Below, piece after piece: positions 3,001 to 60,957 of a stretch of DNA of 64,000 bases. Source of the DNA: Lycium barbarum (taxonomy: Eukaryota > Streptophyta > Magnoliopsida > Solanales > Solanaceae); the NCBI RefSeq assembly GCF_019175385.1, contig NC_083342.1:122202376-122266375 (forward strand). Direction: 5' to 3'. How positions within the stretch are numbered: position 1 is the stretch's first letter; every line of letters starts with the position of its first letter. Both the position numbers and the translations under genes were made by a program. Below the pieces are notes generated by a model. The model ran no database searches. It saw only the letters and a program-made list of their open reading frames with translations, and was not told the DNA's origin.

Positions 3001-6000
3001 TCAATGCCCTACAGACCCTCAGAAAAGGTAAGGGACAAACACAGGTGTAAAGCATAGTCTGTAAACTACTTCTGGAAGGTCCTTGAATAAAAATATGGAA
3101 CTATATTTTAAACAAAACAGAACTACCTGACAGAGCAAAAACTCACGACTATGTCTAGCATCTACAAGACGATAACGCGGAGCTTGAAAGCCAGGGTGGA
3201 AACAAGAGAGGATGAGCAAGGCAATAGTTAGCATTATCAGAGTACTTTCTCAATCCCAAAAGATTTTAGGTACTTAGCTTCTGTTCAAACAGCTTAAAAA
3301 CAGCATTTGATGTAGTATTGCTATGTATAGACCTTATTTCCACTTTAGATAACAAAACAGTAGTTTATGGGATTTAATGAGCCAAAAAAGTGCAAACTAC
3401 TCCATGTAGAAATATGACCTGGCAGCAGACTAATAAAATCAGAAGCACTTAAGTGGAATGGAGATATACCTGTATTTGGGCTCTGTTTCCAGCAGTGATG
3501 TTAGAGATAGTCCAACATGCTTCCTTCTTGATGCTTTTCTTGTGATTTTGAGTTAACAATTGATACAGACATGGCAAGACTTGGTTGTCAATCACATACT
3601 GAAATATGAATACCAGTAAGTCATGTGAAAATAGAGCAAAAGTAAGCAAAGAGAAGAACACTTAAATCCATATCCATGTAGCAGCAGAGGTGATATTAGC
3701 AGAATTTTCCAATCTTTCTGATTATAAAGATTATATACACAAGTTTATCCTGAAAGACAAAGTGCATAATAAATTTCTTGCGATACGTTACTTAGAACTT
3801 TTGTTTTGCTCAATAAACAAATTCGCATGATGTTAAACATGGATAACATAATAACTGCATAACAATTTTCATATCATTTTGATTTTTGATGTGGAGATAG
3901 AGTGACCTGAAAGGCAAAGTGCAAAGATAACTTGAACACTATAAAGGTAATACTACAGCATTGATTCGGACAGAGGATGACGTCGCAGTACCTGTGTTTG
4001 AGCATCATCACCAGTAACAATATTTCCCGCGGTACGGAGAGCAGGTATGAGAACAGTAGGCGATGGATGACTTCATAGGACGAGGAGGGGAAAAGGCAAG
4101 GTTAGCATCAAATCAGCTGGATTTTTATAAAAATTCCAAGTATAAAGTTGGATGTCAAGAGCAATCTCCAACCCCCTAGACGCATAGATGCTGACTAATT
4201 TAAAGCAAAACAATGATTGTAGAAATATTTGGAACTTACAGAAGAAGCTCCACTAGTCGTGGACAGACACCTGCCTCGATTACAGCCTGAATCTTATCAT
4301 TTGGGCCATCAGATAAATAAGAAAGAGCCCAGCAAGCATCTGTCAAGACTTCTTCATCATTCGTGTGGATAAGTTGTTGAAGAACGGGCAATGCAGGTTT
4401 GACCTATAACATAAACTGTCAGCCAATTATTTCTGAAATAAATCTTTAACTATCTAGACAGATTCGGAAACAGCACAATAAATAAGACACAAAAATGTGC
4501 TCATTAAAAAGGAAGCATAATTTAAGCCCACTTACTGCCTCAAATGGTGTTGGTGGTTTGCCTCGACAAAAGTTAGAAAGAGTCCATGTTGCATTTCTTA
4601 GCATTGAAAGCTTTGACTGTTCATTCAACTGAGCTAGCAATGGCATCAACGCACCCTGATTTAGAACAAGATCTCTACAACTTGGGGAATCACCAGCAAC
4701 ATTGCCCAAAGCCCAGACTGCCTGTTTGGTAAATTGGTGTCAAGACAGAATTGTTGTCAGAATTTTTAGAAAGAACCAACAATTATTAAAAACAACTGTT
4801 TACTTTGTTAAAGGGACATGCACTTTTTTTAGAATTTGGACACAAAATTCTTTGAAGAAAACACAGGATCACCAACACAAATAGCAGAAGCAAAATCTGG
4901 AAAACTTTCAGACCTCCTATACCGCTAGGCTCTCACTTAATATTAAACTCCCCGACAATGGCACTATACAACTCATTAATCCCTTAACAAAGTGCAAAAT
5001 GCATCCCGCAGTTATCTACTTGGAAATTTAAACTTAGTTAGCCAAATTATTATCTTTTGTTTCACATTTTCATTGCTTTTTCGTCTCTACATCCAATTGC
5101 ACATCAAGAAAAAAAATGTTATTCCTTTAATTATTTCTACATGATTCTGCTATTTTAAGCAAAATCAAATTTTAACTTATGGAATAATTGTTTTCCTTAT
5201 CAAGGTTTCTTGACGTATATTGACTTTAATTTAAAGCTCACGAACACTGCATTATGTTTTAGGTTACGTAGCAAATTGCAAAGTCGTTCCTATTCCACAT
5301 ACCGAAGATATTTGTGCAACAGGTGACATAGTTTAAACTCTAACACTCACTAGGAAACTATTGAAATTCACGTCCAACAATCGGGTGCATAAATAAAAAT
5401 AAATTCAAATAATGAAACAAGATTACCTGTTCACGGACATCATCACTGGCTGAGCTAAGAAGTTGTACAAACATAGGAACAGCTCCATGGTCAATCACAA
5501 CACGAGTATGTTCTGATGTCCCAGATGCAACATTTGTCAACGCCCAGGCAGCTTCAAACTTCAGACATAGTAAAGATCAAGGCCAATTCAGGATGGTTGC
5601 TGCATCTTGAGTAAAGGCAACCTAACAGGAAAAGAAGGAAGAATAGGTAACACTCACTTGAAGCTGAGGTAGGTCATGCCGACCAAGGAATTCTACGAAT
5701 CGAGGGATAACTCCAGCTTTAATTACCTCATCAATTGGAGGGCTGCGCTCTACAGTAAACAAAACTATAGTCAGCAGAAAATAATTTAAGAAAGCTAGAT
5801 CCGAAAATGACGGAACAAATGAATACCAATCGACAAAAGCTTCCTAAAATGTGTAGTTGCTTCGATTTGCACTGCGGGATCTTCTGACCATACTCCTTGG
5901 ACCATAACAGGAATACTTTCCAGCTGTTAGAAAACACAAAAAGATATTAGAAGTGGCCCTTAATTATAGTAAAAGTTTTGGCAAAGGAAAGGATTAGAGT

Positions 6001-9000
6001 GTCATCTTTAATCTCTCAAATAAACTCCCACTTGTCCTTATTCTAAATGTTTGACAGTTCCATAATAAATAAATAAATCTGTAAACCTTTGCCGTGTTCA
6101 AGAATCCACGTCCGTCAAGTATTTTTTTGGAAAATGAAATCCACGTCCGTCAAGCATTCATAGCATGATATGATATTTCCTTCTAAACTAATTCTACCTT
6201 CACAGAAGGAGGAAAAGGTTAAACGCTTTAACCTCTTCGCAATAGTACGGAGCGGAGGAACTTACTTATTTCCGTTCTTCTTAATTTCAAGAAGAAAACT
6301 TGTTAAATTTTACATTTGTGTTTGTGCTTATGCTAGCATCATTCATATTTTGTTCTCATGTCTTTCTACAATTCCTCAGTTCTGTTTCCTCATTATGCGA
6401 CTATTACTGAAATTTGAAGCCAAGTTTCTATTGAAATTCATGTCTGTAACGATATTATGTGACTCTATTAATATTATGCTGAAAATTGAAGCTAATATTC
6501 TACACTAATTCTTAGTGTTTCTACCATATTGTATGTTCAGATTGTAAGTCCTTGACCTTTCTTAAGTTAAAAACGGTATTTTAAAGCGAAAAGCACCAAA
6601 AACGACAAGGTTCACGAGGCTGGAAGCAAAAAGCAAAAAGTATAGTGCACCCTTCTTTGAAGTGACGTGTACAATTCAGAAAAAGTTAAAAAAAAAGACC
6701 AAACCGTAAATTTAGTAGTATAATAATCAAATTGCAAATGAAATAATTAATTTCAGCATCCATTGTACAATAGAACACATATTAATCCAACTCCTCAAAG
6801 TTGAGATTCAAAGAACCGACTGCCTATAGTTTGGAACTCTTTGCTCGTCATTGTTTGAAAGGTACACTTCTCTGAAGCGCAATAACCTCTCGCTTTGTAT
6901 CACTTTAAGCAGCGAAGGCATGGCTTTTAACAAAAATGTAATCACTTGGTCAAGTTTAATGAATTTCTGAATATAAAGAGTATCTTAATTCTGTTACAAA
7001 AACTTTCACATTTTCTAACCCAGATGACATTTATTTTGAAGAAGCATGCACCTCGTTTGAAGTGTGCGCTTCATTTCTCATCAAAGACAATAATATTATC
7101 AAACTGAGTTTTGCTTTTCGGTTTTCATCACACGAGCACGATTATCAAAACATTTCATTCCAGAAAGAATAGGTTACTGATGATATGTTACCAAATGGAC
7201 ACTCTCGTTGCATGGAGCCTCATAAGGTAAGAGTTCCTTTTGGGTCTTGACATAAGTCCAGCTAATTATTTCCCCAGATCAATTATGGTTCATTAAATAA
7301 TTAAAGATATATAAACCTGATATAAATAATGACAGACACATTAATCCATGATTTCAACTTGTCTTTTTCACACTTGTTAAAAATGCCATATACACAGAAA
7401 GATGTGAAAGAAAGGGCTAAAAACAAGAACTCAATTGGACAAACGAAGTTAGCTGACTTAGCTCTAATTATGATTATCTGAGATTACAAAGGACTTACTG
7501 AGTAATTTTGTTGATTTGTTTAAAATTGCCGTGGCACGCCATTTGTAAAGTATGGGTTTCCTTTTTAACTCTTTCTAAATTCTAAGTCTTCCCAGTGCTC
7601 CATTCCAACCTCACCGCTACTAATTAACCTACTCGGTCAACCACTCCCTCAATTTGATCAGCATATTGAAATTTGGCAAATAGTTTAATATTTCTATAGC
7701 TTATCAATTGGTATTTTTCTCAAATTTGAATTGGAATGAAGTTCAAACTTCTTAACATTTTAATATTTAAAATGAGAAATTTTATAGTTACTGCTCCTGC
7801 TAGCATAGCTTATTCCAATAGTGGTTTCTTCCCCCTATTTTTGTTGATGATTATTAGCTCTACTTATGATTATCAAGTTTTTCTTATATTGGACCTTATA
7901 TTTGTGTTGAATGAAATTATGACATAATAAAAGAATCTTAATCAATGATATTGTCTCTAATTCAATTTGTTTTGTTATTCTTTATTTATCGTAGTCAAAC
8001 GCGCACTGCGGCCACTAATACTAGTTTCTAATAAATCAAGAGATAATTTCATTGATTTCATACTAGGATGGTGCATAACTATGTACAAGCGATCGAGTGT
8101 GGTATCCACCATATATCACTGTCCTAATAACCTATACATACAAGCATTCTCTCTTTACACCAAAAAGAATCAAGCTTTTCATTTATATAAATTAGCCAAA
8201 TTTGTTAAGTATAAGATTATAAGGAGTTCATTTGTTGATCCCACTGGTAATCAATGGCTGCACAGCTTTAAAAAAGTATCGTAACGGAGCAAATCCGTAC
8301 ATTATTCTCTGCAGTGCCAAAAAAGATATAATCAAAGTCCAAATATCTGGCGTTTCTCACTTGTTGCTAAAACATATACAAGCAATTAATCACGATCTCA
8401 ATAAGAACGCACAAATAAAAGGTAGACTATTAAGTGTAGTCAACTTCAGCAACAACAAAATAAATAAAAAATCAGAGTTCCATTAATTCACCTCGATCAG
8501 TAAATTCAAATACCCAATCCGTAAATAGTCGAAAGATAAAAGCAAAAGTACAAACTTTTTGTCCAGTTTCAAAGAAATCGACCAATCAAATCAATAATCA
8601 ATCACCTATCGCTAATCTCTAAGATAAAAACTTTTAGACACTCCGCGCTATCCACCATATAACAGTCCAAATAACTTATATATATACTAGCATTCTATCT
8701 TTACACCAAAAAGAATCAAGTTTTTCATTTATATTAGTAATTAGTCAAATTTGTTAAGTATAAGATTTTAAGAGTTCATTTGTTGATCCCAGTTGTAATC
8801 AAGGGCTGCACAGCTTTAAAAAGGTATTGTGATGGAGCAAATCCGCACATAATTCTCTGCCACACCAAAAAAATATATATTCAAAGTCCAAATATTTGGC
8901 GTTTCTTGCTTATAGCTAAAATATTTCCAAGCAATTAATCACGATCTCAATAATAACACATAAATTAAAGGTGGACTATTAAGTGGAGTCAACTTCAGCA

Positions 9001-12153: not shown

Positions 12154-19380
<7,227 letters not shown>

Positions 19381-33758: not shown

Positions 33759-34012
33759 GCTAAACTTTCTCAATTCTCCTGTAGGATTCTTTGTAAAGTG
33801 TTAATAACTAGTAACTGATATGTTCAAGGAGATAAAACTGGAGTTGTAACTAATTTGGACAAATATAGGCTTTCTCAAGTGTGGTGCAAAAATCTTGAAA
33901 GATAGGTAATTAATATTGGACCGGAGGTAGTAGTATTTCAGAGTCCGGCGCCAAAATGGCTTGTTTGTGAAGTTAATAGACAAAAATAGGATGTGTTTTT
34001 TTTTAATACCAA

Positions 34013-34540
34013 AATGGGTATTTCGTTGGTTATCCAACGAAATACCTACACTCAATACTGTTCTGGTTCGGATTGTTGCATTTCGCTATACTTGTAGCGA
34101 AATGTAACAAATAATTTTTTTTTTGCATTTCGTTTGTATTCCAACGAAATAGGATTTTTTTTTTCATATATTTCGTTTATAAAAAAACGAACTATGAATT
34201 TTTTTTTTATTTCGTTCATATAAAAACGAAATAGGAAAATATAATTTTTTTTTTTGTATTTCGTTGGTATATGGACGAAATAGGATAAAATTTTTTTTGT
34301 ATTTTGTTTATAAAAAAATGAAATAATTTTTTTTTATTTCGTTTATATAAAAACGAAATAGGAAAATATAATTTTTTTTTTTGTATTTCGTTGGTATATG
34401 AACGAAATAGGATTTTTTTTTTTTTTTGTATTTCGTTTATATAAAACCGAAATAGGATTTTTTTTTTTTTTTTTTGCATTTCTTTTATATTCCAACGAAA
34501 TAGGATTTTTTTTTTTTATTTCGTTCATATACCCTTTTTC
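34013..34540. repeat. Left array of TTTCGTT/AACGAAA palindromic units
   Basis: Roughly ten short palindromes of the form tttcgtt...aacgaaa separated by T-rich tracts. Each can fold on itself, and as a whole the array pairs with 37975-38605. Length differences in T runs make unit lengths vary. Confidence 0.85.
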
Positions 34541-35629
34541 TGCTCTCCACTTTTACCCTAAATTATTTTACCTTATCCTCTTCATTCTCCATTCTCCGTT
34601 CTTCCTCTACCTCCATTCTTCCTCTTCTTCCGTTCTTCATTCTTTTCTTCTTTTTCTACTAATCCTATTACAAAGATTCCTCAACTTTTGCTCCATAATC
34701 TTCTTCAAATTGAGGTAGTTTATTAATTTTATAAGTTTTTACATATATTTTTTTATTTAGTCATTATAAATTAGTTCACATTTATTTTTTTGATTTATTT
34801 ATATCTTATACTTAGTGTAGTAGACTATAATAAAGAAAACAAAAGTTACAAGTTTAATTAATCAATAGTTGGTAATTTCAGTCGTTGCTTCAATTAAAAA
34901 AACTTTAAAAATGTTAGTAGATTTTATTGGTCAACAAACTACAATTAAAATACTAAAAAGATCGTCGAAGCTACTGATTAAAAAGGTATAAATTTATATT
35001 ATAAAATGTTCTTTTAGTTAGTCATTTTCATAGAACAACAGTTAAAAAAAAGATGAAGAAATTGTGAGGAAAGTAAGATTGTTAAATATAGCATAAAGAT
35101 ATTTGTATCATTTGTTGGGTCATTTTCTATGTTCAAATTGTGACTAGTCATTGGAGTTTATTTTCTGTTGATAAGCATTAAGAATTTTTACTTTTCAAAT
35201 TAAAAGTATAAGATCAAGAAACTGTGAGGAAGTTGGACTTGGTTTTGAAGCTAATAGATAATTTTTTTTTTTAATACCAAAATGGGTATTTCGTTGGATA
35301 ACTAACGAAATACTGTTCCGATCCGGTAAAAAAAAATATTAACTTTCCTTGCATCCCCTCTCCAGTCATATGGTTTGTTTTAAATAGAAAAGAAGTAGTT
35401 ATATGTAAGATGAATACTACTATGACAATTAATTATGAGCTTAACCAAAAGTTTAATTACATTTCGTTGACCACATAGGGAACTGCAATTATTTTTTTAT
35501 AGTTGTACTCTTATTATTTTTTTTTCTTTTCTCACGTGATAATATATCTTATAGTTTGACCTTTGTTGACTTTCCTATTGAATATATAGTAAATAATTGT
35601 GTAATGTGTTGTAAATTATTCTAACAGCA
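34541..35629. other. AT-rich internal part of the Mutator-like element
   Basis: A pyrimidine-rich stretch (34541-34700) is followed by AT-rich DNA. At about 35255-35325 there is a broken copy of the element terminus (taccaaaatgggtatttcgt), perhaps from an earlier insertion or rearrangement. No coding potential; may contain the promoter of the PMD frame. Confidence 0.5.
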
Positions 35630-35656
35630 GTGGCTTGGTGTTGCAATGTTATAGTT

Positions 35657-36358
35657 ATGGATCGCCTCAAAGTCACTGTACATCCAGGTCTAGAAAACTA
35701 TGATTTATTAATACTCCAGCAACAGCATCGATCTCAGGCTATGTGGGATGGAAAATTGACTGGACAGAACGCGTGTTTAACTATACGTCGTGCGAATCAT
35801 GAATTCTGGAATCACGTGAGGCAATACCCTTTACATAATCGCATCCTTAATTACTTTGAGAGGTGTGGATTTAGGGGAGTTTTAGCAGTAGGTAATGTGC
35901 AGTATGATGAAGGAATCATCACTGTACTTATTGAAAGATGGCGTCCAGAGACGCATACATTTCATATGCGGACTGGCGAATGTGCCATCACACTGCAGGA
36001 TGTCGAGGTGTTATATGACATTCCCGTGGATGGCCACCCATTGGTGCAGAGAAATGTTAAAAATATAACTAAATCAACGTGGCGGGAATTGATGTACGAC
36101 CTTACTGGTTGGTTGCCCGGAGAAGAAGCAATTATAGGTAATAGCTTGTTGGTAATAACACAATTATCTAATCATTTGGAAACCTTGATTGCCAAGAATG
36201 ATATTATTGATGAACACACTAATGAGGCTGAGGTGCAAAAGAGGGTCAGGTTGTACCTGCTTTGGTTGATTGGTGGCACTATGTTCCCTGATAATACTGG
36301 TTCAAAGCTTAGTTTACACTTTTTGCTTGACATAATTCCTCATGCCGCTTGCAAATAA
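35657..36358 (+). CDS. Plant mobile domain (PMD, MAIN-like) protein, truncated
   Basis: 233 codons from the ATG at 35657 (MDRLKVTVHPGLENYD), a typical PMD opening. The frame stays open upstream to a GTG at 35630, but the ATG fits the family better. Typical PMD features follow in order: QQQHRSQAMWDG, a helix ending LNYFERCGFRGVL, LIERWRPETHTFHM, GECAITLQDVEVLYDIPVDG, and later RLYLLWLIGGTMFPD. PMD proteins occur as cellular genes (MAIN and MAIL1, needed for silencing and meristem integrity in Arabidopsis) and inside Gypsy and Mutator-type transposons. This frame stops about 230 residues into the domain, shorter than the usual 350-400, so it is probably truncated or lacks a downstream exon. It has no in-frame stops or frameshifts. 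It faces the transposase remnant at 36567-37659. Confidence 0.85.
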   Translation: MDRLKVTVHPGLENYDLLILQQQHRSQAMWDGKLTGQNACLTIRRANHEFWNHVRQYPLHNRILNYFERCGFRGVLAVGNVQYDEGIITVLIERWRPETHTFHMRTGECAITLQDVEVLYDIPVDGHPLVQRNVKNITKSTWRELMYDLTGWLPGEEAIIGNSLLVITQLSNHLETLIAKNDIIDEHTNEAEVQKRVRLYLLWLIGGTMFPDNTGSKLSLHFLLDIIPHAACK

Positions 36359-36566
36359 CCTTCCAAAATGTACCTTTGGCTTGATCTGTTTTAAATTGTT
36401 TTTTGTGGGCTATATTATAGAGTCTCACTGCACCTTTCATTTGCTTCTTGCTGTGAAATAACATACCTATTTGCATGTACAAGAAAAAATATCAACTCCT
36501 AATTACACCAATTAAAATCACAGAATTCAAAAATAATATATTATTAAAAAAATTAGTCGCACCAAA
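36359..36566. other. Gap between the converging PMD and transposase frames
   Basis: No recognisable coding sequence. The missing PMD C-terminus and MuDR catalytic core would be expected here, so this is the likely site of the large deletion. Confidence 0.5.
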
Positions 36567-37659
36567 CTAACCTGATTTGATAACTTTAGGATTACTGGAA
36601 TTCCAAAGTGCAGCCCGAACAGACCCGTTATCTCTCATGTATGCAAAATCTTCCGGTTCTACTTCTTCTGTATTATCCAAATATGGGATCAAATTTGAAT
36701 GATAATTAACACTAACATTACTGGGGGCCGCAACATCTTCATCAGAATCGTCACCGTCGGTAGACGATTGATCACCGTCCGTCCCTTCATGATCTAATGG
36801 ACTATCGCTATCCGACTCATTTATTATATCATTAGCTAAATCGTTATTGCTCACAATTTGTGTGAGTTGAGTCAATGTGGGGTTATCTTCAAAATCGTTA
36901 TGCCTATAAATAAGAAAAATTCATAGAATTTACAAGTCAAACACAATTATACAATCCATGAATAAAGTGAATAAAATATGATTATATTTACGTATCACTG
37001 TCCAATTCACTTGGACCAAGATATGAAGCGTGTCGTACATTACAATTCAAATTATGCAACTGCGTAGTAGCATTACTTGGTCCACCCGTCTCACGATTCT
37101 ATCCACTCCAATCAAAGTTATGATAGTGCGTTGAAGCCATACGACCATACTGTGTACCATAATTAGTTGTATCATTTGACTAACTACCAAATGCTACAAT
37201 TGTTTGTTGTTGAACTACACCCCTTGAAAAACCAATATTCAAACTTGGGAGATAGGTAGTACCTCCAAAATCGAACTCATTGTCGGTCGGTACTTCGACC
37301 TCGGTAGAGCGTTGAACTGTAGCATACATGTCAAGCGCCGCTATGCATATGTGATTTTTAAAAATCTCAGGACAACGAAGAAGTGACGATAAAGATTCAT
37401 CGTCTGTAATTGGCATCTCACCATAAATTGGTGAACCATCGGCTGTAAATGAACTTGGACATCGTCCGGTTATAACCACCGATGGTTCAGGATCATTTTC
37501 GAACATTTTACTCCTTAAGACGTATTGCAGACGATCATATTTTAGGGAAATTGGAAACCTTTGCCCTATTTCAGGACCACGGCTGTATCTAACCGAACCT
37601 GCTTCATACACAACTTCACCACCCCAAAATAAATACACTTTAACATGAGTTTCCGTCAT
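36567..37659 (-). pseudogene. MuDR-type transposase, N-terminal remnant
   Basis: Exon 1 (37659-36992) starts MTETHVKVYLFWGGEV, the beta-rich N-terminal domain of plant MuDR transposases. An 88-bp GT-AG intron (36991-36904) follows, then exon 2 (36903-36567) with an acidic linker (SDSDSPLDHEGTDGD) and the segment VRAALWNSSNPKVIKSG that normally precedes the MuDR DNA-binding and DDE catalytic region. That region is missing altogether. Exon 1 also has two in-frame TAG codons (37177-37179 and 37099-37101). No functional transposase can be made, so the element depends on others for movement. Confidence 0.82.
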
Positions 37660-37974
37660 CTTTTATGAAATATATGAGAGAAAAAATAAAAGTTGAAGGA
37701 TATGAAACAGATAAGAGAAAAACAATAAATGAAAGATATGAGATGGATAAAAGAAAATTGAAAGACGAAGGATATACCATAGGTAAAGATAGGACAATAT
37801 TTATAAATGGAGAAAAGTAAAAAAATTCGCAAATTAAGTCACCAAATGTAAAAGATATTATTTTGACAGCTATTCAATGCTCGTCTGAAACTGATTGAAC
37901 CAACAGAAATGAACAAAAAAAAAAAAAATTAAAACCATAGCGATATGGAGAGCAGAAAAACAGTAAAAAAAAAG

Positions 37975-38605
37975 GGTTTTTCGTTATATACGTTGTGAAA
38001 TGGAACAAAACATTTCGTTGGTATATAAACGGGAAAAAAATATTTTCCTATTTCGTTTTTATATAAATGAAATACAAAAAAAAAAAATATTTATCCTATT
38101 TCATTGGTATATGAATGAAATACAAAAAAAAAAATATTTATCCTATTTCGTTTTTATATAAACGAAATAAAAAAAATATTTTCCTATTTCGTTTTTATAT
38201 AAACGAAATACAAAAAAAATATTATCCTATTTCGTTCATATACCAACGAAATACAAAAAAAATATATATATTTTCCTATTTCGTTTTTTTATAAACGAAA
38301 TACAAAAAAAAAATTATCCTATTTCGTTCATATACCAACGAAATACAAAAAATAATAATTATATTTTCCTATTTCGTTTTTATATGAACGAAATTAAAAA
38401 AATATTTTCATATTTCATTTTTTTATAAACGAAATACAAAAAAAAAAAAACCTTATTTCGTTGGAATACAAACGAAATGCAAAAATAAATAAAAAATTAT
38501 TTGTTACATTTCGCTACAAGTGTAGCGAAATGCAACAATCTGGACCGGAACAGTGTTGATTGTGGGTATTTCGTTGGATAACCAACGAAATACCCATTTT
38601 GGTAT
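37975..38605. repeat. Right array of TTTCGTT/AACGAAA palindromic units
   Basis: Inverted counterpart of 34013-34540, with about a dozen short palindromes separated by A-rich tracts, closing with gcgaaatgcaac and aacgaaatacccattttggt. Confidence 0.85.
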
Positions 38606-38619
38606 AAAAAAACGTATCC

Positions 38620-40534
38620 GTCTCTCCTGGGCCCCTCTTGCATGCCGTGTAAATTAAAGACCACCGCTTAATTTATCTTTTGTATGCTTTGTTAAAATAG
38701 CAAAAACGTGCTTGTTATATAGTATTTCTTTTCTAGGATAAGTGTTTGAAGGTTGATTTATTCTTTAAAGTGGTTTTAATTGAATTATAAGGTTGGAAAC
38801 TATTTGTATACGCTAAAAATCGGATTTATGCTAGACCGGTGAGACCGGGAATCGAGGAAGAAAGAAACAAGCACGAGCATGAAGACTTTCTTTCGGACCG
38901 GAGGTATTGCACTAGAAGTGGTTGATCAGAAGAAAGCGGAGGAAATCGTTTGGTCCGGTTTCTCCATGGCCGAGTTGATCGTGGCCGTTAGTCCGGTTTC
39001 TCCATGGCCGAGTTGATCGTGGCCATTAGTCCGGGTGATCAGTTACAATATTTCCACGCGTCAAGACCGTTCTGCCACATTGTACTGCCAATTGTACGGG
39101 TGTCAGACTGTACGACCCAACCTTATCCTTTTAGGGTTTTCTTTATTCTAAAGGGGCTTTATGTTGTGGCAAGGCTCATAAGGCAAAACTATAAATAGGA
39201 GGCATTTCCCTACTTTTAAGGGTTAGCTTTTCAAGATCAAGAACATTGTAATAGAAAATATATTGAAGCTCTCTCTCTCTTTTAGTCCGGATCTGTGGAG
39301 TATTATTGTTTAGCTTCATTCTTCTAATATCACTATACTTAATCATCCATAGAAACATATGCGACGCATGTATTCAAGTTATTAACGCATACATTCATAT
39401 CTACAAACCATTGTACACGAATCCATATATATATATATATATATATATATTCCCTCAAAAATCAACAAAGATTAAAGTTTGCCCACATATCCTATACCTC
39501 ACTTACAAATTCAATTGATTACCTAATTTCGGAATAAACAGTATTTCATATCAATGACATTATAATATCTATGTTACTGTGTACTACTACTATAATAGTT
39601 AGAGAACATAAGATGAAGGAAAATGTAAAAGAGGAAACCATATGTTAAACCAAAACCTCAAACAACTTTGTAGTATAAAACAATTTCGTGAACTTAACAT
39701 TTTTTTCCCAAAAGTACAAGAGGAGAGGTGTAAAAAATTATTAGCACTTCGCTGGTAGGCCTACTTAGATTAGGGTTCCAAACCTCATTGCTTATACCAC
39801 CCTCTAGTGTGTAATCTACATTCTTTTAGTTAGAATTCGGTCGTATGAGAATCATTGATTCTCTTTGCTGTTAATTTCTAATCCATTTTCTTCAGCTAGT
39901 GCCCAGTAAATGCATATCCAGTAAATGCATACATGTGTCTTTATATAAATTCCTAATATTTAATCATGATTAACTGATAGTACTTTCTCCGTCTCAAATC
40001 ATTTGTCATGTTTCTCTTTTACATATCCCTTGAAAACACATTAATTAGGAGTTTTTATAAAATAAAATAAAAAATTACCCTTATTTATGTCTTAAAATAT
40101 AATCCCTCTTTATTGAATATTTATTTTATTTATGTGTCATAGTTAATGTATTTATAGTCTTCAAGAACAGTTACTACGAAGGATAAAATGAAAAAAATAA
40201 TTAATTTTATCTTGAACCTCTAAAATAATAAATAATTAAATAACTATTTTTAGAAATCATAACAAATAATTTGAGGCCAAGGGAGTATACATCTTCACTT
40301 CACTTTAATCACTTTAACTGTATTAAATTAATATGATTTGATATAACTATTGAGTATGAGAAAGTATTTATGGGGTTCGCTAGCTTGGAGGGTGCAGATG
40401 TTTTGATTTGGTTCTTGGTGTGAATGTGGTGGTTGGCATTGATTGGTCTGATAAGATTAGGCATTGTCTTAATAATTTGCTGCTTCTGAGGAAACGATGG
40501 GCTAGAAAAATAATTTGGGATTCTTCCAGCCGAA
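38620..40534. other. Intergenic spacer with a possible LTR-like stretch and a MITE
   Basis: 38830-39350 has a promoter-like organisation (ctataaatagg at about 39190, then a CT repeat near 39270) that could be an LTR fragment, but I found no paired copy. (AT)n at about 39426-39450. A Stowaway-like MITE lies at 39983-40285. No credible gene. Confidence 0.45.
39983..40285. mobile_element. Stowaway-like MITE
   Basis: Left end ctttctccgtctcaaatcat and right end atttgaggccaagggag are imperfect inverted repeats; TA flanks both sides. Confidence 0.65.
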
Positions 40535-41728: not shown

Positions 41729-42241
41729 ATGTCTCTAGTGACAGATGAGATCAGGGCCAGTGCAACTGAATTCTACACTGGAAATGATATCTGCCAAGAG
41801 AAATCCAAGTTCTTGTTAACTGAAATGGGCCTCCCTAATGGCCTACTCCCTTTGCAAGACATGCTAGAATGTGGCTATGTCAAGGACACAGGCTTTGTTT
41901 GGCTCAAATCCAAGAAAAAAACTGAGCACAAGTTTGAGAAAATTGGGAGATTCGTCCAATATGCAACTGAAGTCACAGCCTATGTTGAGCTCCACAAGAT
42001 CAAGAAACTTACTGGGGTCAAAGCCAAAGAGCTACTAATTTGGCTCACACTTACTGAAATTTGTGTTGATGATCGACCAACTGGGAAAATCCATTTCAAG
42101 ACTCCAACTGGACTTTCTAGGACTTTCCCTGTATCAGCTTTTGAACTCGATGAGCCCAAAAAAGAAGTCCAAGAAGAGGTCAAAGAAGAAGTCAAAGAAA
42201 AGAGTGCTGCTGTTGCTGCAGGGGAAGTGAAAGAGGTGTAA
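41729..42241 (+). CDS. DUF538 family protein
   Basis: Intronless, 170 aa, ATG in a good plant context (aaaaaaatgtct). The DUF538 core is clear: MGLPNGLLPLQDMLECGYV, GFVWLKSKKKTEHKFEKIGR, VTAYVELHKIKKLTGVKAKE and a segment with GKIHFKTPTGLSRTFPVSAFE. Unlike many DUF538 proteins, it has no N-terminal signal peptide. The last ~28 residues are a Lys/Glu-rich tail with KEEVKEEVKE. Members of the family include SVB, linked to trichome size in Arabidopsis; lipid- or chlorophyll-related activities have been proposed, but the biochemical role is unsettled. It sits next to ICP55, as the DUF538 gene At1g09310 does in Arabidopsis (from memory). Its promoter is duplicated 7.9 kb upstream. Confidence 0.92.
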   Translation: MSLVTDEIRASATEFYTGNDICQEKSKFLLTEMGLPNGLLPLQDMLECGYVKDTGFVWLKSKKKTEHKFEKIGRFVQYATEVTAYVELHKIKKLTGVKAKELLIWLTLTEICVDDRPTGKIHFKTPTGLSRTFPVSAFELDEPKKEVQEEVKEEVKEKSAAVAAGEVKEV

Positions 42242-47796: not shown

Positions 47797-49320
47797 TCAG
47801 AGCGAGCCCTGATTTAGTAGGGCGTTGGTATGGTCTTGTATCACTTTCCAAGCTATGTCAACATGCCTATAATCTGTAAGAGAAGCACCAATGGCAAATC
47901 GAATAATATAAGTGCCTCCAACAACTCCATGAGTCAAATAGAGTTGACTAGATGAATTAATAGACTCCACCAACTTAGTGTTAAACTTGTTCACTTCTTC
48001 CTCATGATCAAATTTGGTTGAAATTACTGATGGGGAAATCCTAAAACACACCATAGCAAATTTTCTAGGCACAAAGATTTCAAACCTTGTGTCCATAGCT
48101 ATAAGCCCTTCAAAATGCTTAGCCATGTTCACATGACTTCTTATCAAGTTTCTGAGATTAGTTACCCCATAACTTCTCAAAACTAACCATAGCTTCAATG
48201 CTCTAAATCTCCTGCTCAATGCAATTTGCCAGTCCTTATAATCAATCACTTGATTTAACTCTGTGGCCTTGTTTCTTAAGCACTCAGGATTAGTCGATAA
48301 AGCTTTTGTAAGTGCACTTGGATCCTTAACCCAAAGGCAGCAACAATCCAACGTGGAAAAGAACCATTTGTGTGCATTGAGACTGAAAGAATTTGCATTT
48401 TCAACACCATCAAGAAAGCGCTGAAACTCAGGGCAAATACAAGCACTTCCTGCATAGGCTGCATCCACATGTACCCAAATGCCAAATTCCTTAGCAATTT
48501 CACAGAGAGCACGCAATGGATCAACAGAAGTTGTTGAAGTTGTCCCAATGGTCACGCACAAGAATAAGGGAACCTTCCCTTCTTTAATGTCATTCAAGAT
48601 TGCTAAACGTAGCGATTTTGGGTACAAGGTAAACTCATCAACCTTTGTTGTTGGGATAACTCGAAAATTCTCGGGGTCTATCCCAGCTATGTGGGCAGCT
48701 TTCTTGAGAGAAAAATGTGTCTGATCAGATGCATAAACCACCAATTTGCCAAAATTCTCTCTACCAAATTTCCTCAGCATTTGGTCTCTAGCTGCCACTA
48801 TAGTGCACAACATGGCTTCACAAGTTGTACCTTGTAGTACACCTCCGCCGCCACCGGAGAATAGGAAATGATTGGGAAGATTTAGCATTTTCCCAAACCA
48901 ATCCATCACAATGCTCTCAAGTTCAGTGGCAGCAGGGGATGATATCCAATTGAACCCTACAACATTAAATCCAACGCTTAACATTTCACCTAGGAATCCA
49001 GCAGTACTTCCCGAAGAAGGAAAATAAGCAAAAAAATTAGGACTTTGCCAATGAGTTATCCCTGGAATAATATCCCTTTTGACATCTTGAAGAATTTTTT
49101 CGAGTGGCTCGGGGTCACTAGGGGCAGAATTTGGTACAAGTTTTTGGAGATAGCCTGGATTGACTTGGCTACAAACTGGATATTGTTCAATGTTTTGGTA
49201 GTAATCAGCAAGGAAATTCACAATCCTGTGACCTTGCCTTCTAAATTCTTCAGGATCCAAAGGGTTTATGTTGTTGAAAATTTGGTCATCAAGTTCATGG
49301 TTGATGTTGAGGGTACCCAT
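47797..49320 (-). CDS. Aromatic L-amino acid decarboxylase, tyrosine-decarboxylase type
   Basis: Intronless, 507 aa, PLP-dependent group II decarboxylase of full family length. It would convert Tyr/Phe/DOPA to the amine, or to an aldehyde in the AAS variants, in the cytosol. Visible motifs: [17 protein letters not shown], active-site His202 ([10 protein letters not shown]), Asp286 ([17 protein letters not shown]) and the PLP lysine Lys318 in NAHKWFF. Substrate marker: Ser369 in QIALSRRFR, where tryptophan decarboxylases have Gly, so a phenolic substrate is predicted. Oddity: the mobile catalytic-loop position that is Tyr in decarboxylases and Phe in aldehyde synthases is Cys347 (TNPECLRNK; codon TGC at 48280-48282, one transition from the Tyr codon TAC). 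All other key residues are present and there is no frameshift. The class is certain; the reaction performed is open. Confidence 0.95.
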
Positions 49321-56028: not shown

Positions 56029-57603
56029 ATGGATTTGAGCGGTAGTGTTAATGGACTGGGGATGGAGTTGTTGAATCAGTCCAATTACAAGGTATGGAAG
56101 ACATGTATAGAGTCATACCTTGTGGGCGAGGATTTGTGGGATGTTGTTAATGGGAGTGACACAAATCCTCCTATTGACGCAATTCCCCGCCCGATAAGAC
56201 TGATCGGACCGGAAAATAGCAGTGCATACAAGAATGGGAAGCAAATTAATGCGAAGGCGGAGTTCATCCTGAAGAGGTCCATCTCTCACAACTTGTTTGA
56301 TCATATTATAAGGTGCAAATCAGCTCATGAGATATCGAGGACCCTTGATCGTTTGTTCAACAAGAAGGATGAAGCCCGGCTATAAATACTGGAGAATGAA
56401 TTGGCGAACACCACTCAAGGTAATCTTTCTATTGCCGAGTACTTTTTGAGGATTAAGAACTTATGTTCAGAAATGTCTTTATTAAATCCGGACGAAGCTA
56501 TCTCCGAAGCACGAATGAGAAGAACTATCTTTCGTGGTTTGAAGTCAGAATATATTCCTTTTGTTACATCAATTCAAGGATGGGCTCAACAACCATCCTT
56601 GGAGGAGTTTGAGAATTCGTTGTCATCACAGGAGCTATTATCCAAACAGATGGCTGGTGTATCGATCAAAGAAGGGGAAGGAAATGCTCTTGCAGCTAAC
56701 CGAAGGAATCTTAAAGTAAGGCAAAAGCAAAGTGGCTCAAGAGAGATGGCGTATTCTCAATTCCAAGAGGGTTCAAGCTCTCCAAGACAGAAGGAGAAGT
56801 CTTCTAATTATGGTAAGAAGACTATTAAATGTTATCGATGTGGTAAAATAGGACACATAAAAAGATATTGCCGAACAAAAGAGAGCAACATGGCTCAAGT
56901 TGTTGAGAAAACTGCTGAAGAAGAAGAGGACTAGATAAGGTGCTTCGTAGCTGAGGCTCGAGTAGTAGATGCCCTGGCTTCCTTCAATTTCGAAAGAAAC
57001 TGGATCATGGATTCAAGGGATAATACGGTCCATCACGTGGAGAAGGAAGGCATTAGTGTCATCAACAAAAAGCAAGAAGATTCCAAAGACGTTCAGACTA
57101 GTGACGTGGTAGCTGCTATCGAGGAAATCAACGAAGCAGATCCTGAAACTAGTAATAAAAGTCTGGACGTGGAGGATGTTGAAGTAGATCCTGAGCATGA
57201 AGTTTCTGAAACTATATATGACAATGGTGACCATTCCGGAGAAAGTATTGAGGGAGTCGTAGTGGAAATTGAAGTCTCTGGTCAATCATTTGTCGTATCA
57301 AAGTCAATCACTAAGTCAGATCAAATACTGAAAGCAGATGGAAAAGCCGGCGATCAAATAAATGAAGAGGTTGACCTTGAAGGCTCAATTTCATATGGAG
57401 ATACAAGCAGTATGATTTTTGAAAGCTCTGAAGTTGCCAAACAATTTATTGAGGAGCTGGAAAGGGAATGTATTGGTGGATCCTATGTTGGTGTTGAGTC
57501 TTCGAAGGGTATCCATGGTCAGATCATCATCGACTCAGATGGTTCTCCAGATAACACAATTGTCAAAGAGCTAAGAGAAAGAGGGAGTCTGGAAACTCAA
57601 TAA
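56029..57603 (+). pseudogene. Copia gag-derived frame of element A, broken
   Basis: Starts MDLSGSVNGLGMELLNQSNY, a Copia gag (UBN2/DUF4219 type), with zinc knuckle CYRCGKIGHIKRYC. Compared with the intact copy at 59044-60819, it has TAA at 56383-56385, TAG at 56932-56934 and TAA at 57601-57603, plus a 12-codon extra stretch near codon 45. The long acidic C-terminal part is present up to the third stop. Confidence 0.85.
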
Positions 57604-57876
57604 CGTAAAACTCAGCATGGAGATGATTCACGTGGTTCGCAAAGGCCAAAAAGAAATATTGTTAAGATAGCTCGCTATAACAATGAAAAATTTACCGGTA
57701 CGTATTCATGCTTCTTTGCGGGCCCAATTAATGGCAGAAAACCTTCGTCATTTGAAGAAGCAAGAGGAGACAGGAAAGTATGTCTGAGATCTTCACCAAG
57801 GCACACCTAAAAGCTTCGTCTGAGTTCTTCTGCAACAAGCTCGGGGTAGTTTCCAAAAAATCGCTTTAAGGTGGAG

Positions 57877-58292
57877 TGTGAAGAAATAAAGTTAATTTTT
57901 TGGAGGTACAAAAAATCCCAGATATTTAGTAAGGAATCTAGAATAGTCTAGTGTAGGATCTTGGATAATTATCTTAAAGAAAAATCTAGATATTCTAGAG
58001 TAGTTGTAGAAGATAAAGTTTACTAGATTTTTCTTGTAGATGTAGCTAGAATAATTTCTAGAACCATCCCTACACAAGTATAAATAGGGATGGCCTTAGT
58101 CATTTGTAACCAACCCAAGTTAACCCATACAACCCCAATTGTAAGCTAATACTACCAATACAAGCCAAATCAAGTAAACTTTTCCTTTCCATAGCTTCCT
58201 CTTCTTTAGTTGAATCTTCTGATCTTAGTTAACGATCTTGGGCTAGCAGAAGGTCTTCCCGATTTACCTTTCTTCTGCTATATTTCTCTACA
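57877..58292 (+). repeat. Right LTR of Copia element A
   Basis: 416 bp, tgtgaagaaa to ctctaca, preceded by a purine tract; highly similar to the reassembled left LTR and to the LTR of element B. Contains ctctagat-type repeats and a TATA-like gtataaatagg at about 58077. Confidence 0.85.
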
Positions 58293-58563
58293 GGAGCATT
58301 TCTACGGCTATGGCTCTAATACCATTTACAACATCCCACAAATCCTCTCCCACAAGGTATGACTCCATACATGTCTTTCATACCTTGTAATTGGACTGAT
58401 TCAAAAACTCCATCCCCAGTCCATTAACACAGCCGCTCAAATCCATTTAGAGAAACCAGTTGAATCTCCCACAAACCCGATCTTGAAATAAAATCCAGAA
58501 GCCAACTTGTGGCTATGGCTCTGAATTTTTGGTCTAGTTCCAAAAATTCACTTTAAGGGGGAG
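58293..58563 (-). repeat. Inverted copy of the Copia leader and gag start between elements A and B
   Basis: Read on the minus strand, 58515 down to 58293 gives the leader (gccatagccacaagttgg), the gag start (aaatggatttgagcggct) and about 110 bases of gag, ending with a second PBS-like tggtattagagcc. It ends at a short piece with the purine tract of element B (58549-58563). It arose by template switching or inversion. Confidence 0.75.
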
Positions 58564-60957
58564 TGTGAAATCATAAAGTAGATTTTTTGGAACTACAAAA
58601 AATCCTAGATATTTAGTAATGATTCTAGAATAGCCTAGTATAGTATCTTGGATAATTATCTTATAGAAATATCTAGATGCTCTAGAGTATTACTAGAAGA
58701 TAAAGGTTGCTAGAATTTTCTTGTAGATATATCTAGAAGAGTATCTAGAATCATCCATAGACAACTATAAATATGGATGATCTTATACATTTCTAATCAA
58801 CCCCAATTGTAAGCTAATACTACCAATACAAGCCAATTCAAGTAAACTTTTCCTTTCCATAGCTTCCTCTTCTTTAGTTGAATCTTCTGATCTTAGTTAA
58901 CGATCTTGGGCTAGCAGAAGGTCTTCTCGATTTACCTTTCTTCTGCTATATTTCTCTACATGGTATCCGAGCCATAGCCACAGGTTGGCTTCTAGATTTT
59001 GTTTCAAGATCGGGTTAGTGGTAGATTCAACTGGTTTCTCTAAATGGATTTAAGCGGCCGTGTTAATGGATTGGGGATGAAGTTGTTGAATCAGTCTAAT
59101 TACAAGGTATGGAAGACATATATGGAGTCATACCTTGTGGGAGAGGATTTGTGGGATGTTGTTAATGGTAGTTACACAAGTCCTCCTACTGACGGACCGA
59201 AAAATAGCAGCGCATACAAGAAGTGGAAGCAGATTAATGTAAAGGCGGAGTTCATCCTGAAGAGGTCCATCTCTCACAACTTGTTTGATCATATTATAAG
59301 GTGCAAATCAGCTCATGAAATTTGGAGGACCCTTGATCGTTTGTTCAATAAGAAGGATGAAGCGCGGCTACAGATCTTGGAGAATGAATTGGCTAACACC
59401 ATTCAAGGTAATCTTTCTATTGCCGAATATTTTTTGAAGATTAAGAGCTTATGTTCAGAGATCTCATTATTAAATCCAGATGAGGCTATCTCTGAAGCAC
59501 GAATGAGAAGAATGATCATTTGTGGTTTGAAGAAAGAATATATTTATTTTGTTACATCAATTCAAGGATGGGCTCAACAACCATCCTTGGACGAGTTTGA
59601 GAATTTGTTGTCATCACAGGAGCTACTAGCCAAACAGATGGCTAGTGTATGTTTTAAAGAAGGGGAAGGAAATGCTCTTGTAGCTGACAAGAGGACCTTC
59701 AAAGGAAAAACATTCACAGATACGCCACCCTCCCGATTTCAAAGTGTTTCCAGCTCACCAGAAAAAGAGGGAGAGTCTACTAATAACTATAAGAAGACTC
59801 TGAAGTGTTACAGGTGTGATAAAATAGGACACATAAAAAGATATTGCCGAACAAAAGAGAGCAACATGGCTCAAGTTGAGAAAGCTGCTAAAGAAGAAGA
59901 GGACTGGGGAAGGTGCTTCGTAGCTGAGGCTCGAGTAGTGGATGCCCTGGCTTCCTTCAATTTCGAAAGAGACGGGATCATGGATTCAGGAGATAATGCA
60001 GTCCATCATGTGGAGAAAGAACACATTGGTGTCATTAACAAAATAAAAGAAGATTCTGAAGATGTTCATACTGGTGACGTGGTAGCTGCCATCGAGGAAG
60101 TCAACGAAGTAGATCCTGAAATTGGTAATAAAAGTCTGGTCGTGGAGGATGTTGAAATAGATCCTGAGCATGAAGTTTCGGAAACTATATATGACAATGG
60201 TGACCATTCTGGAGAAAGCATTGAGGGAGTTGTAGTGAAAGTTGAAGTCTCTGGTCAATCTTCTGCCATATCAGAGTCAATCACCAGCTCAGATCAAATA
60301 CTGGAAGCAGATGGAGAAGCTGACGGTCAAATAAATGAAGAGGTTGACCTTGAAGGCTCAATTTCATATGGAGAGACAGATAATATGGTTCTCGGATGCT
60401 CTGAAGCTGACAAACAGTTCATTGAGAAGCTGAAAAGGGAATCTGGTGGTGGATCCTACGGTAGTGAGTCTTCGCAGGAAATTAATGGTCAGATCGTCAC
60501 CGACTCAGGTGCTTCTTCAAATAACACAATTGTTAAGAAGCTAAGAGAAAAGGGGAGTCTGGAAACTCAAGAATGTGAAACTCAGCATGAAGATGATTCA
60601 CGTGGTTCGCAAAGGCCAAAAAGAAATATTGTCAAGTCTGGCCGTAACAGAGATGAAAATTTTATCAAGACGTATTCATGTTTCTTTGGAGGCCCAATTA
60701 TTAGCGGAAAATCATCATCATTTGAAGAAGGAAGAAGTGTTGAGAAAATATTGTTGAGATCTTTACCATGGCACGCTCAAAAGCTTCGCATGAGTTCTTC
60801 CACAACAAGTTCAGGGTAGCTTCCAAAAAATTACTTTAAGGGGGAGTGAAATATTAAAGTTAATTTTTTGGAAGAATAATATCATAGATATTTAGAAAAA
60901 TATCTAGAATGGTCTAGTGTAGCATCTTGAATAATTATCTTATAGAAATATCTAGAT
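58564..60957 (+). mobile_element. Copia-type retrotransposon B, gag-only, 3' LTR truncated
   Basis: Left LTR 58564-58960 (397 bp), PBS-like tggtatccgagcc from 58961, gag-derived ORF 59044-60819, purine tract aagggggag at about 60838, then the first ~110 bases of a 3' LTR (from 60847), which is cut off and followed by a misplaced piece of leader (ggcttctggattttatttca). It is organised like the gag-only 'TR-GAG' class of non-autonomous LTR elements. Confidence 0.82.
59044..60819 (+). CDS. Copia gag-derived polyprotein with acidic tail (element B), intact ORF
   Basis: 591 aa. Residues 1-~215 are a Copia gag (MDLSGRVNGLGMKLLNQSNY, YFVTSIQGWAQQPSLDEFE), then zinc knuckle C255-C258-H263-C268 (CYRCDKIGHIKRYC), which binds RNA during packaging. 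After EEEDWGRCFVAEARVVDA the string IMDSGDNAVHHV looks like a decayed Copia protease start. About 200 acidic residues follow without a recognised domain, then SQRPKRNIVK, as in the integrase-RT linker of Copia pol. The last ~25 residues read the RNase H C-terminus in a shifted frame. So the ORF joins gag to remnants either side of a large pol deletion. The same joined structure in copy A argues that the deletion came before the copies multiplied. Confidence 0.85.
   Translation: MDLSGRVNGLGMKLLNQSNYKVWKTYMESYLVGEDLWDVVNGSYTSPPTDGPKNSSAYKKWKQINVKAEFILKRSISHNLFDHIIRCKSAHEIWRTLDRLFNKKDEARLQILENELANTIQGNLSIAEYFLKIKSLCSEISLLNPDEAISEARMRRMIICGLKKEYIYFVTSIQGWAQQPSLDEFENLLSSQELLAKQMASVCFKEGEGNALVADKRTFKGKTFTDTPPSRFQSVSSSPEKEGESTNNYKKTLKCYRCDKIGHIKRYCRTKESNMAQVEKAAKEEEDWGRCFVAEARVVDALASFNFERDGIMDSGDNAVHHVEKEHIGVINKIKEDSEDVHTGDVVAAIEEVNEVDPEIGNKSLVVEDVEIDPEHEVSETIYDNGDHSGESIEGVVVKVEVSGQSSAISESITSSDQILEADGEADGQINEEVDLEGSISYGETDNMVLGCSEADKQFIEKLKRESGGGSYGSESSQEINGQIVTDSGASSNNTIVKKLREKGSLETQECETQHEDDSRGSQRPKRNIVKSGRNRDENFIKTYSCFFGGPIISGKSSSFEEGRSVEKILLRSLPWHAQKLRMSSSTTSSG

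Follow-up and report, generated by a model that had tools for sequence, protein, structure and literature searches.

A free-standing plant mobile domain gene beside the transposase in a Mutator-like element family of Lycium barbarum

Is a plant mobile domain (PMD) gene that lies inside a transposon a passenger, or does it belong to the element? The question is raised by a stretch of 64,000 nucleotides of the Lycium barbarum genome (contig NC_083342.1, positions 122,202,376 to 122,266,375; here called the window), where an open frame for a PMD protein faces the remnant of a MuDR-type transposase (MURA) between long mirrored ends. An earlier note on this DNA had described a Mutator-like element (MULE) in which the PMD frame is kept while the transposase decays, so that it might be more than a passenger. 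In the window copy that idea does not stand: the copy is dead, an ordinary, internally deleted relic, which is probably unable to move or to make a useful PMD protein. For the lineage, PMD as more than a passenger finds support. From the comparison of sequences we consider it very likely that the window holds a dead, deleted copy of a two-gene MULE family (family A) in whose lineage PMD is no passenger, with a helper or counter-silencing function as its likeliest role. Judged by its linkage to MURA and by its ratio of nonsynonymous to synonymous divergence (dN/dS, omega), PMD appears to be a second gene that has been under constraint in this lineage.

The truncation of both genes in the window copy can be traced to one event. 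The PMD frame (35657–36358, plus strand) is open, as had been claimed, and matches Pfam family PF10536 (E 6.6e-28), but the domain is cut after position 137 of the 347 of the model; no structural relative was found in the PDB at E 1. On the minus strand lies the N-terminal frame of MURA, which has no catalytic core and has two in-frame TAG codons (160 and 187), just as first described. It reads as three exons separated by GT-AG introns: exon 1 (37659–36992) with both stops, exon 2 (36903–36572), and a third beginning at 36466, of which 36337–36466 is left. The MuDR DNA-binding domain starts in this last piece (PF03108, positions 7–48 of 67), with a match below the curated cut-off (E 0.00055, 20 bits against 25). 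Glutamine stands at both stop positions in the relatives P0121 and P0123, and the stop at codon 160 is common to the window copy and its relative L006. Set against intact copies, the letters are those of PMD up to 36336 and those of MURA from 36336, with one base in common. Lycium PMD relatives that reach 36336 continue with DLDAIGGKAWGA where the window copy breaks off, tblastn matches of three of the Lycium PMD relatives end at 36337, and the MURA relatives P0125 and P0130 continue with GCSWMIRFSLIGSGMWKAGK past the break on their side. Since the two stumps meet at one point, a single deletion has truncated both genes. What remains of PMD is a truncated first coding exon (35657–36336, plus strand), and the last 22 nt of its open frame (36337–36358) are antisense MURA. 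The junction (36336–36337, with its 1-bp overlap) occurs in none of 62 loci, the best of which has 13 mismatches in 40 positions, and, with as many as 3 mismatches allowed, a 27-bp junction pattern was found in a single place of the 1.67-Gb, 164-contig genome, against 0 for the backwards control. We therefore rejected the idea that the deleted form has been amplified.

The ends of the copy are mirrored and built of palindromes, in agreement with the earlier note. The best inverted pairs join 33999–34124 to 38487–38612 (126 nt, 93% identity) and 34199–34325 to 38185–38311 (127 nt, 91%), and further pairs between the arms range down to about 71%. The unit is a 22-bp palindrome, TTTCGTT..AACGAAA. 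All 18 TTTCG..CGAAA units of the window fall inside 33989–38619, against a mean of 0.3 and a maximum of 3 in 200 dinucleotide shuffles of that interval; with up to 3 mismatches allowed there are 42 palindromes across the window, 27 of them within the element, and 25 lie in the two arms, for which 50 mononucleotide shuffles gave a mean of 0.22 and a maximum of 2. The boundaries first proposed, 33989 and 38619, have to be redrawn. Comparison with other copies places the left terminus at 33941, with the sequence GAGTCCGG; read outward, the family copies start with GAGTCCGGAGCCAAAATGG, which corresponds to the same position. The PMD-side terminal inverted repeat, with its terminus GAGTCCGGCGCC followed by the palindrome array, extends over 33941–34549 on the plus strand, its inner limit being set by eye. 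The MURA-side repeat with its array lies at 37947–38619 on the minus strand (limits by eye) and has been stripped of its outermost part, terminus and target duplication; it leaves the family sequence after 38612 by alignment or 38619 by eye. Because the right terminus is lost, no target duplication is seen at the copy's own ends. A search with the left-flank decamer (13 matches against 10.2 expected, with a one-mismatch match at 38720) was uninformative. Adjoining the left terminus, at about 33919–33940, is the sequence GGACCGGAGGTA, which recurs rightward of the element at about 38895–38910 and which, by eye, we take to resemble the end of a small transposon.

Other copies with the same ends exist in number. 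The end motif ATACCAAAATGGGTATTTCGTTGG has 139 exact places in the genome (66 plus, 73 minus; backwards control, 0). Both termini were present in 11 of the 16 elements examined, the window copy included, and nine of these 11 are flanked by target duplications of 9–10 bp, eight perfect and one with a single mismatch; mispaired flanks gave 0 of 110. Loci L017 and L025 have both termini but no duplication. The remaining five comprise L009, L011, L012 and L028, for which an inner end had been taken as the boundary, and the window copy with its lost right terminus. The inner end is an extra copy of the terminal motif inside the element, at 35274 in the window, within a partial copy of the terminal repeat (35238–35313, plus strand) that lies in left-end orientation about 1.27 kb inside and aligns over 76–86 bp with gaps; it is also seen in other PMD-side ends. 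Among the matches listed, end pairs of the same orientation stand 1.2–1.4 kb apart in five other places, with one pair 2.0 kb apart, and the sequence upstream of the inner ends is alike between copies. The inner end is thus a feature of the family, and a second, nested element at 35274 was rejected on account of these recurring pairs.

Twenty fetched loci were scored for gene content. Parts of both PMD and MURA are present in eight (L009, L011, L018, L020, L021, L023, L025 and L028), and in all eight the genes are convergent, the two-gene layout of MuDR; the proposed arrangement of a PMD gene facing MURA is accordingly found in the window copy and throughout these loci. The clearest example is L020, with 7.8 kb between its termini, convergent genes and a perfect 10-bp duplication; here, as in the window copy, the long terminal inverted repeats that serve as a criterion for MULEs are present, and the inner end matches the opposite end over 72 nt ungapped. 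No inverted pair of at least 60 nt was found in L028; since its left part begins at the inner end, the outer repeat would lie outside the locus. Some relatives are damaged in their own ways: L021 has no MURA core, L025 is without most of MURA exon 1, and L011 and L018 have a common internal deletion different from that of the window copy. The last two lie on different chromosomes (C7 and C1) with a left flank in common as far as it was read, a duplicated stretch or an assembly effect. Two further forms were seen. In L024, extra open frames (4847–5320 and 7740–8249) stand between PMD and MURA; they had no Pfam match, and like frames occur in L027 and L059. In L062 (G000:C3:136325400-136334400) and eight other places, family A genes lie on one strand with MURA first, 2.8–4.3 kb apart; these copies are a recurrent rearranged form.

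A sister family, B (L060 and L061), carries PMD and MURA on one strand with PMD first. Its terminus is of the same type as that of family A (GAGTCCGGAGCC at L061:1531, two mismatches in 19). In L061, which lacks a right end, there are no TTTCGTT palindromes at up to 2 mismatches, and other inverted repeats are present. The PMD match comes in two pieces (positions 1–181 and 239–347 of 347). The family B frames match PMD and the MULE domain above the cut-off, and their matches to SWIM and to the MuDR binding domain fall short of it. The MULE transposase domain (PF10551) passes both in L061 and in L062 of family A, and PF03108 passes in L062 and falls short in L061.

The association of the two genes was then counted over the genome. 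The best 117 of 3209 PMD candidates and the best 95 of 5054 MURA candidates were scored, giving, one per place, 84 PMD-A, 33 PMD-B, 45 MURA-A and 50 MURA-B, with assignment to A or B by identity to the query; the counts that follow hold among these listed matches. MURA-A lies within 15 kb of PMD-A in 29 of 84 places and MURA-B within 15 kb of PMD-B in 18 of 33, against 0–1 and 0–2, respectively, in five controls with one list moved by 0.5–2 Mb. Cross-family neighbours are absent (0/84 and 0/33). The linked genes of family A are convergent in 20 places and on the same strand with MURA first in nine; in family B all 18 are on the same strand with PMD first and none is convergent. PMD and MURA are separate genes in either case, whether they face each other from opposite strands or lie spaced out along the same one, and a PMD-transposase fusion was not found. 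The linkage in family A also disposes of the idea that the PMD frame is a stray from an unrelated Gypsy insertion, an origin that we rejected. In family B, no stop interrupts the matched part of PMD at 29 of the 33 places, or the matched MURA core at 39 of the 50. The 33 PMD and 50 MURA places of this family have closely similar scores, which suggests a recent amplification, L060 and L061 being the only B copies whose DNA was compared.

Selection was assessed at two depths. Among present copies, 43 PMD rows (window included; coverage at least 70%, identical rows removed) were compared with a neutral expectation drawn from the mutation spectrum and context of the same sites, an expectation that may mask weak constraint. 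The choice of loci, the 30 with the best scores plus places with an exact end motif, favours intact frames (20 of 43 have neither stop nor indel), and L011 and L018, with their common flank, count twice. There were 242 nonsynonymous changes (N), 93 synonymous changes (S) and 21 stops, against 247.7, 86.9 and 21.3 expected, which puts N:S at 0.91 of the neutral value (p 0.46); the raw Nei-Gojobori omega of 0.78 is misleading without this control. For MURA exons 1, 2 and 3 the ratios were 1.06, 0.87 and 1.46 (p 0.90, 0.70 and 0.13) from eight, nine and six rows, the majority sequence of exon 3 itself having a stop. Among present copies, then, no constraint can be seen on either gene. The earlier note had looked to a comparison of dN/dS between the PMD frame and the transposase remnant; as PMD is near neutral, much like the MURA exons, the claim that it is retained while the transposase decays fails by that measure. 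Between the families the picture is one of constraint. PMD of family A (majority letters) and of family B (L060) differ with dN 0.331, dS 1.03 and omega 0.32 over 263 codons; for MURA, compared between L028 (family A) and L060, omega is 0.30 in exon 3 (224 codons) and 0.35 in exon 1 (200 codons). PMD would thus have been kept in these MULEs, or before entering them, about as strictly as the transposase, and it is for the lineage that the suggestion of PMD as more than a passenger is supported. In a midpoint-rooted tree of 40 sequences (37 of 120 listed matches and three of our own), PMD-A, related Lycium proteins, PMD-B, P0020 and three Capsicum proteins form one clade (support 0.996), within which PMD-B groups with P0020 and the Capsicum proteins (0.96).

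These observations suggest how such an element may work. Fuller elements of family A have PMD reading inward from one end and MURA from the other, between palindrome-built GAGTCCGG ends. Promoters in or near the ends would drive both genes inward, as in MuDR, MURA would mobilise elements bearing these ends, and PMD may aid the element, perhaps against silencing, for which the VANC protein offers a model. In the window copy, the deletion took away the 3´ portion of each gene and left what remained of them joined at 36336.

Several points weigh against PMD as a co-inherited second gene. Its function is our inference from the comparison. No listed MURA lies within 15 kb of 55 of the 84 PMD-A places and 15 of the 33 PMD-B places; both are upper bounds because only the best candidates were scored, and the window copy, having lost its MURA core, falls among the unlinked. 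The dS between A and B is higher for PMD (1.03) than for MURA (0.65 and 0.78), the omega values use one B copy and, for MURA, one A copy (L028), and none of the family B copies compared is complete at both ends. Gene order differs, mostly convergent in A and same-strand in B, which could mean separate captures, and the low omega could date from an earlier existence of PMD in the host's own gene set, the tree having been built without host MAIN/MAIL genes. The main rival is built on these last points: the two families would have captured PMD separately from host genes, as a passenger in both, and omega would record selection before capture. The higher dS of PMD and the drift of both genes among present copies fit this as well, and two captures of PMD by MULEs elsewhere were inferred by Ikeda et al. 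(2017; PMC5418596). It is opposed by the single clade that unites the A, B and Capsicum PMDs in that tree, by the lack of cross-family partners, and by the many stop-free PMD parts and MURA cores of family B. We regard separate capture as unlikely, while giving it serious weight, and favour a PMD gene that has been more than a passenger in this lineage.

What PMD might do there is a further step. In Arabidopsis, the PMD proteins MAIN and MAIL1 take part in silencing (PMC5418596), and Ikeda et al. (2017; PMC5418596) suggested that a captured PMD may serve MULEs to counter it, a proposal also made for transposons in general (PMC8616336). The PMD of these elements, as a relative of the MAIN/MAIL proteins of the host, could be a free-standing counter-silencing factor that interferes with their pathway, possibly through the end arrays; we put this forward tentatively, as a rather doubtful proposition.

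The arrays might instead act mainly as RNA, palindrome transcripts forming hairpins and the hairpins yielding small interfering RNAs (siRNAs) that silence the family, an alternative that follows the earlier note and that we hold to be improbable. One arm folds as RNA at -163.6 kcal/mol against a mean of -85.2 (z -13.3), beyond 100 of 100 shuffles; this is expected of any palindrome array and is no evidence for small RNAs, and the folding would be just as good if the palindromes were DNA sites for a protein that binds as a dimer. An Rfam search returned no family at threshold here. PMD genes of tea do give phased siRNAs (175 PHAS loci; PMC10673657), and an inverted PMD duplicate in L012 has a layout like that of maize Mu killer (PMC3440606). 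This locus (G000:C2:15227402-15232067), which holds PMD twice, inverted, between PMD-side inner ends and without MURA, could yield a PMD hairpin RNA. Last, selection for the PMD frame of the window copy while its transposase decays, suggested by a stop-free frame opposite a MURA exon 1 with two stops, can be dismissed: the domain is cut at 137 of 347 and joined to antisense MURA, the eight private changes do not avoid conserved columns in protein alignments (0.65 against 0.57, not significant), the family copies are neutral and the junction was found once.

Elsewhere in the window lie host genes for an FSH1 serine hydrolase (18664–19380, plus strand), a DUF538 protein (41729–42241, plus strand) and a tyrosine/DOPA decarboxylase-like protein (47797–49320, minus strand). 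Two similar open frames with CX2CX4HX4C knuckles (56401–60819, plus strand) resemble, by eye, a duplicated Copia-type gag.

Among known systems, foldback elements such as FARE of Arabidopsis and SoFT of Solanum have long inverted ends made of short repeats, and the present elements are likened to them in this respect, by description only. That MULEs can carry PMD is already known (PMC5418596), and that PMD borne by transposable elements may counter silencing has been proposed before (PMC5418596; PMC8616336). The first description of PMD, in connection with a rice MULE, is credited to Babu et al. (2006) in PMC5418596 and PMC9289625. In the available parts of these sources, PMD within MULEs is detailed only in PMC5418596, and not in PMC8616336, PMC10673657, PMC9289625, PMC11152179, PMC4583175 or PMC6123737. 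The literature searched gave no description of separate PMD genes in MULEs of Solanaceae, and none that combines Lycium with Mutator-like transposable elements. New would be a free-standing, co-inherited PMD gene and its link to the end arrays. The elements described here represent a dicot lineage with a separate PMD gene that is linked to MURA in at least 47 places, has partners of its own family and, between families A and B, is constrained like the transposase. The idea of counter-silencing, which for MULEs has so far rested on fusions, would become testable on a free-standing gene.

The MULEs of grasses and Amborella carry PMD fused to the transposase (Ikeda et al., 2017; PMC5418596). The likeness is that PMD travels with a MULE transposase; here, unlike there, PMD has its own gene, which lies more often on the strand opposite to MURA, and the elements are those of Solanaceae. 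Multiple-TIR MULEs, which have internal and external terminal inverted repeats (TIRs) similar over at least 100 bp and are mostly non-autonomous (Ferguson and Jiang, 2012; PMC3310237), are the nearest described kind, with an extra terminal copy inside one end, in the same orientation and in several copies. The inner copy here differs from them in its 76–86 bp with gaps, against their criterion of 100 bp, and in that the family encodes MURA. Maize MuDR has two convergent genes between long terminal inverted repeats (PMC3440606), mudrA and mudrB, with the transposase as one of them, and family A shares this plan. The second gene here matches PMD and is set beside MuDR by its layout; the palindrome-array ends, the extra inner end on the PMD side and the same-strand genes of family B are further differences. 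If PMD holds this place, a candidate can be named for the second-gene position of MuDR-like elements, one with host relatives that work in a known pathway. In VANDAL21 of Arabidopsis (VANA, VANB and VANC), VANC causes loss of methylation and its targets often form tandem repeats (PMC5735166). Like the present elements, VANDAL21 is a DNA transposon with an accessory gene next to that of the transposase and with tandem repeats that change in its non-coding parts, although PMD is another domain and is known here from sequence alone. Were the counter-silencing reading true, the arrays should evolve in step with PMD, in the way that the target repeats do with VANC.

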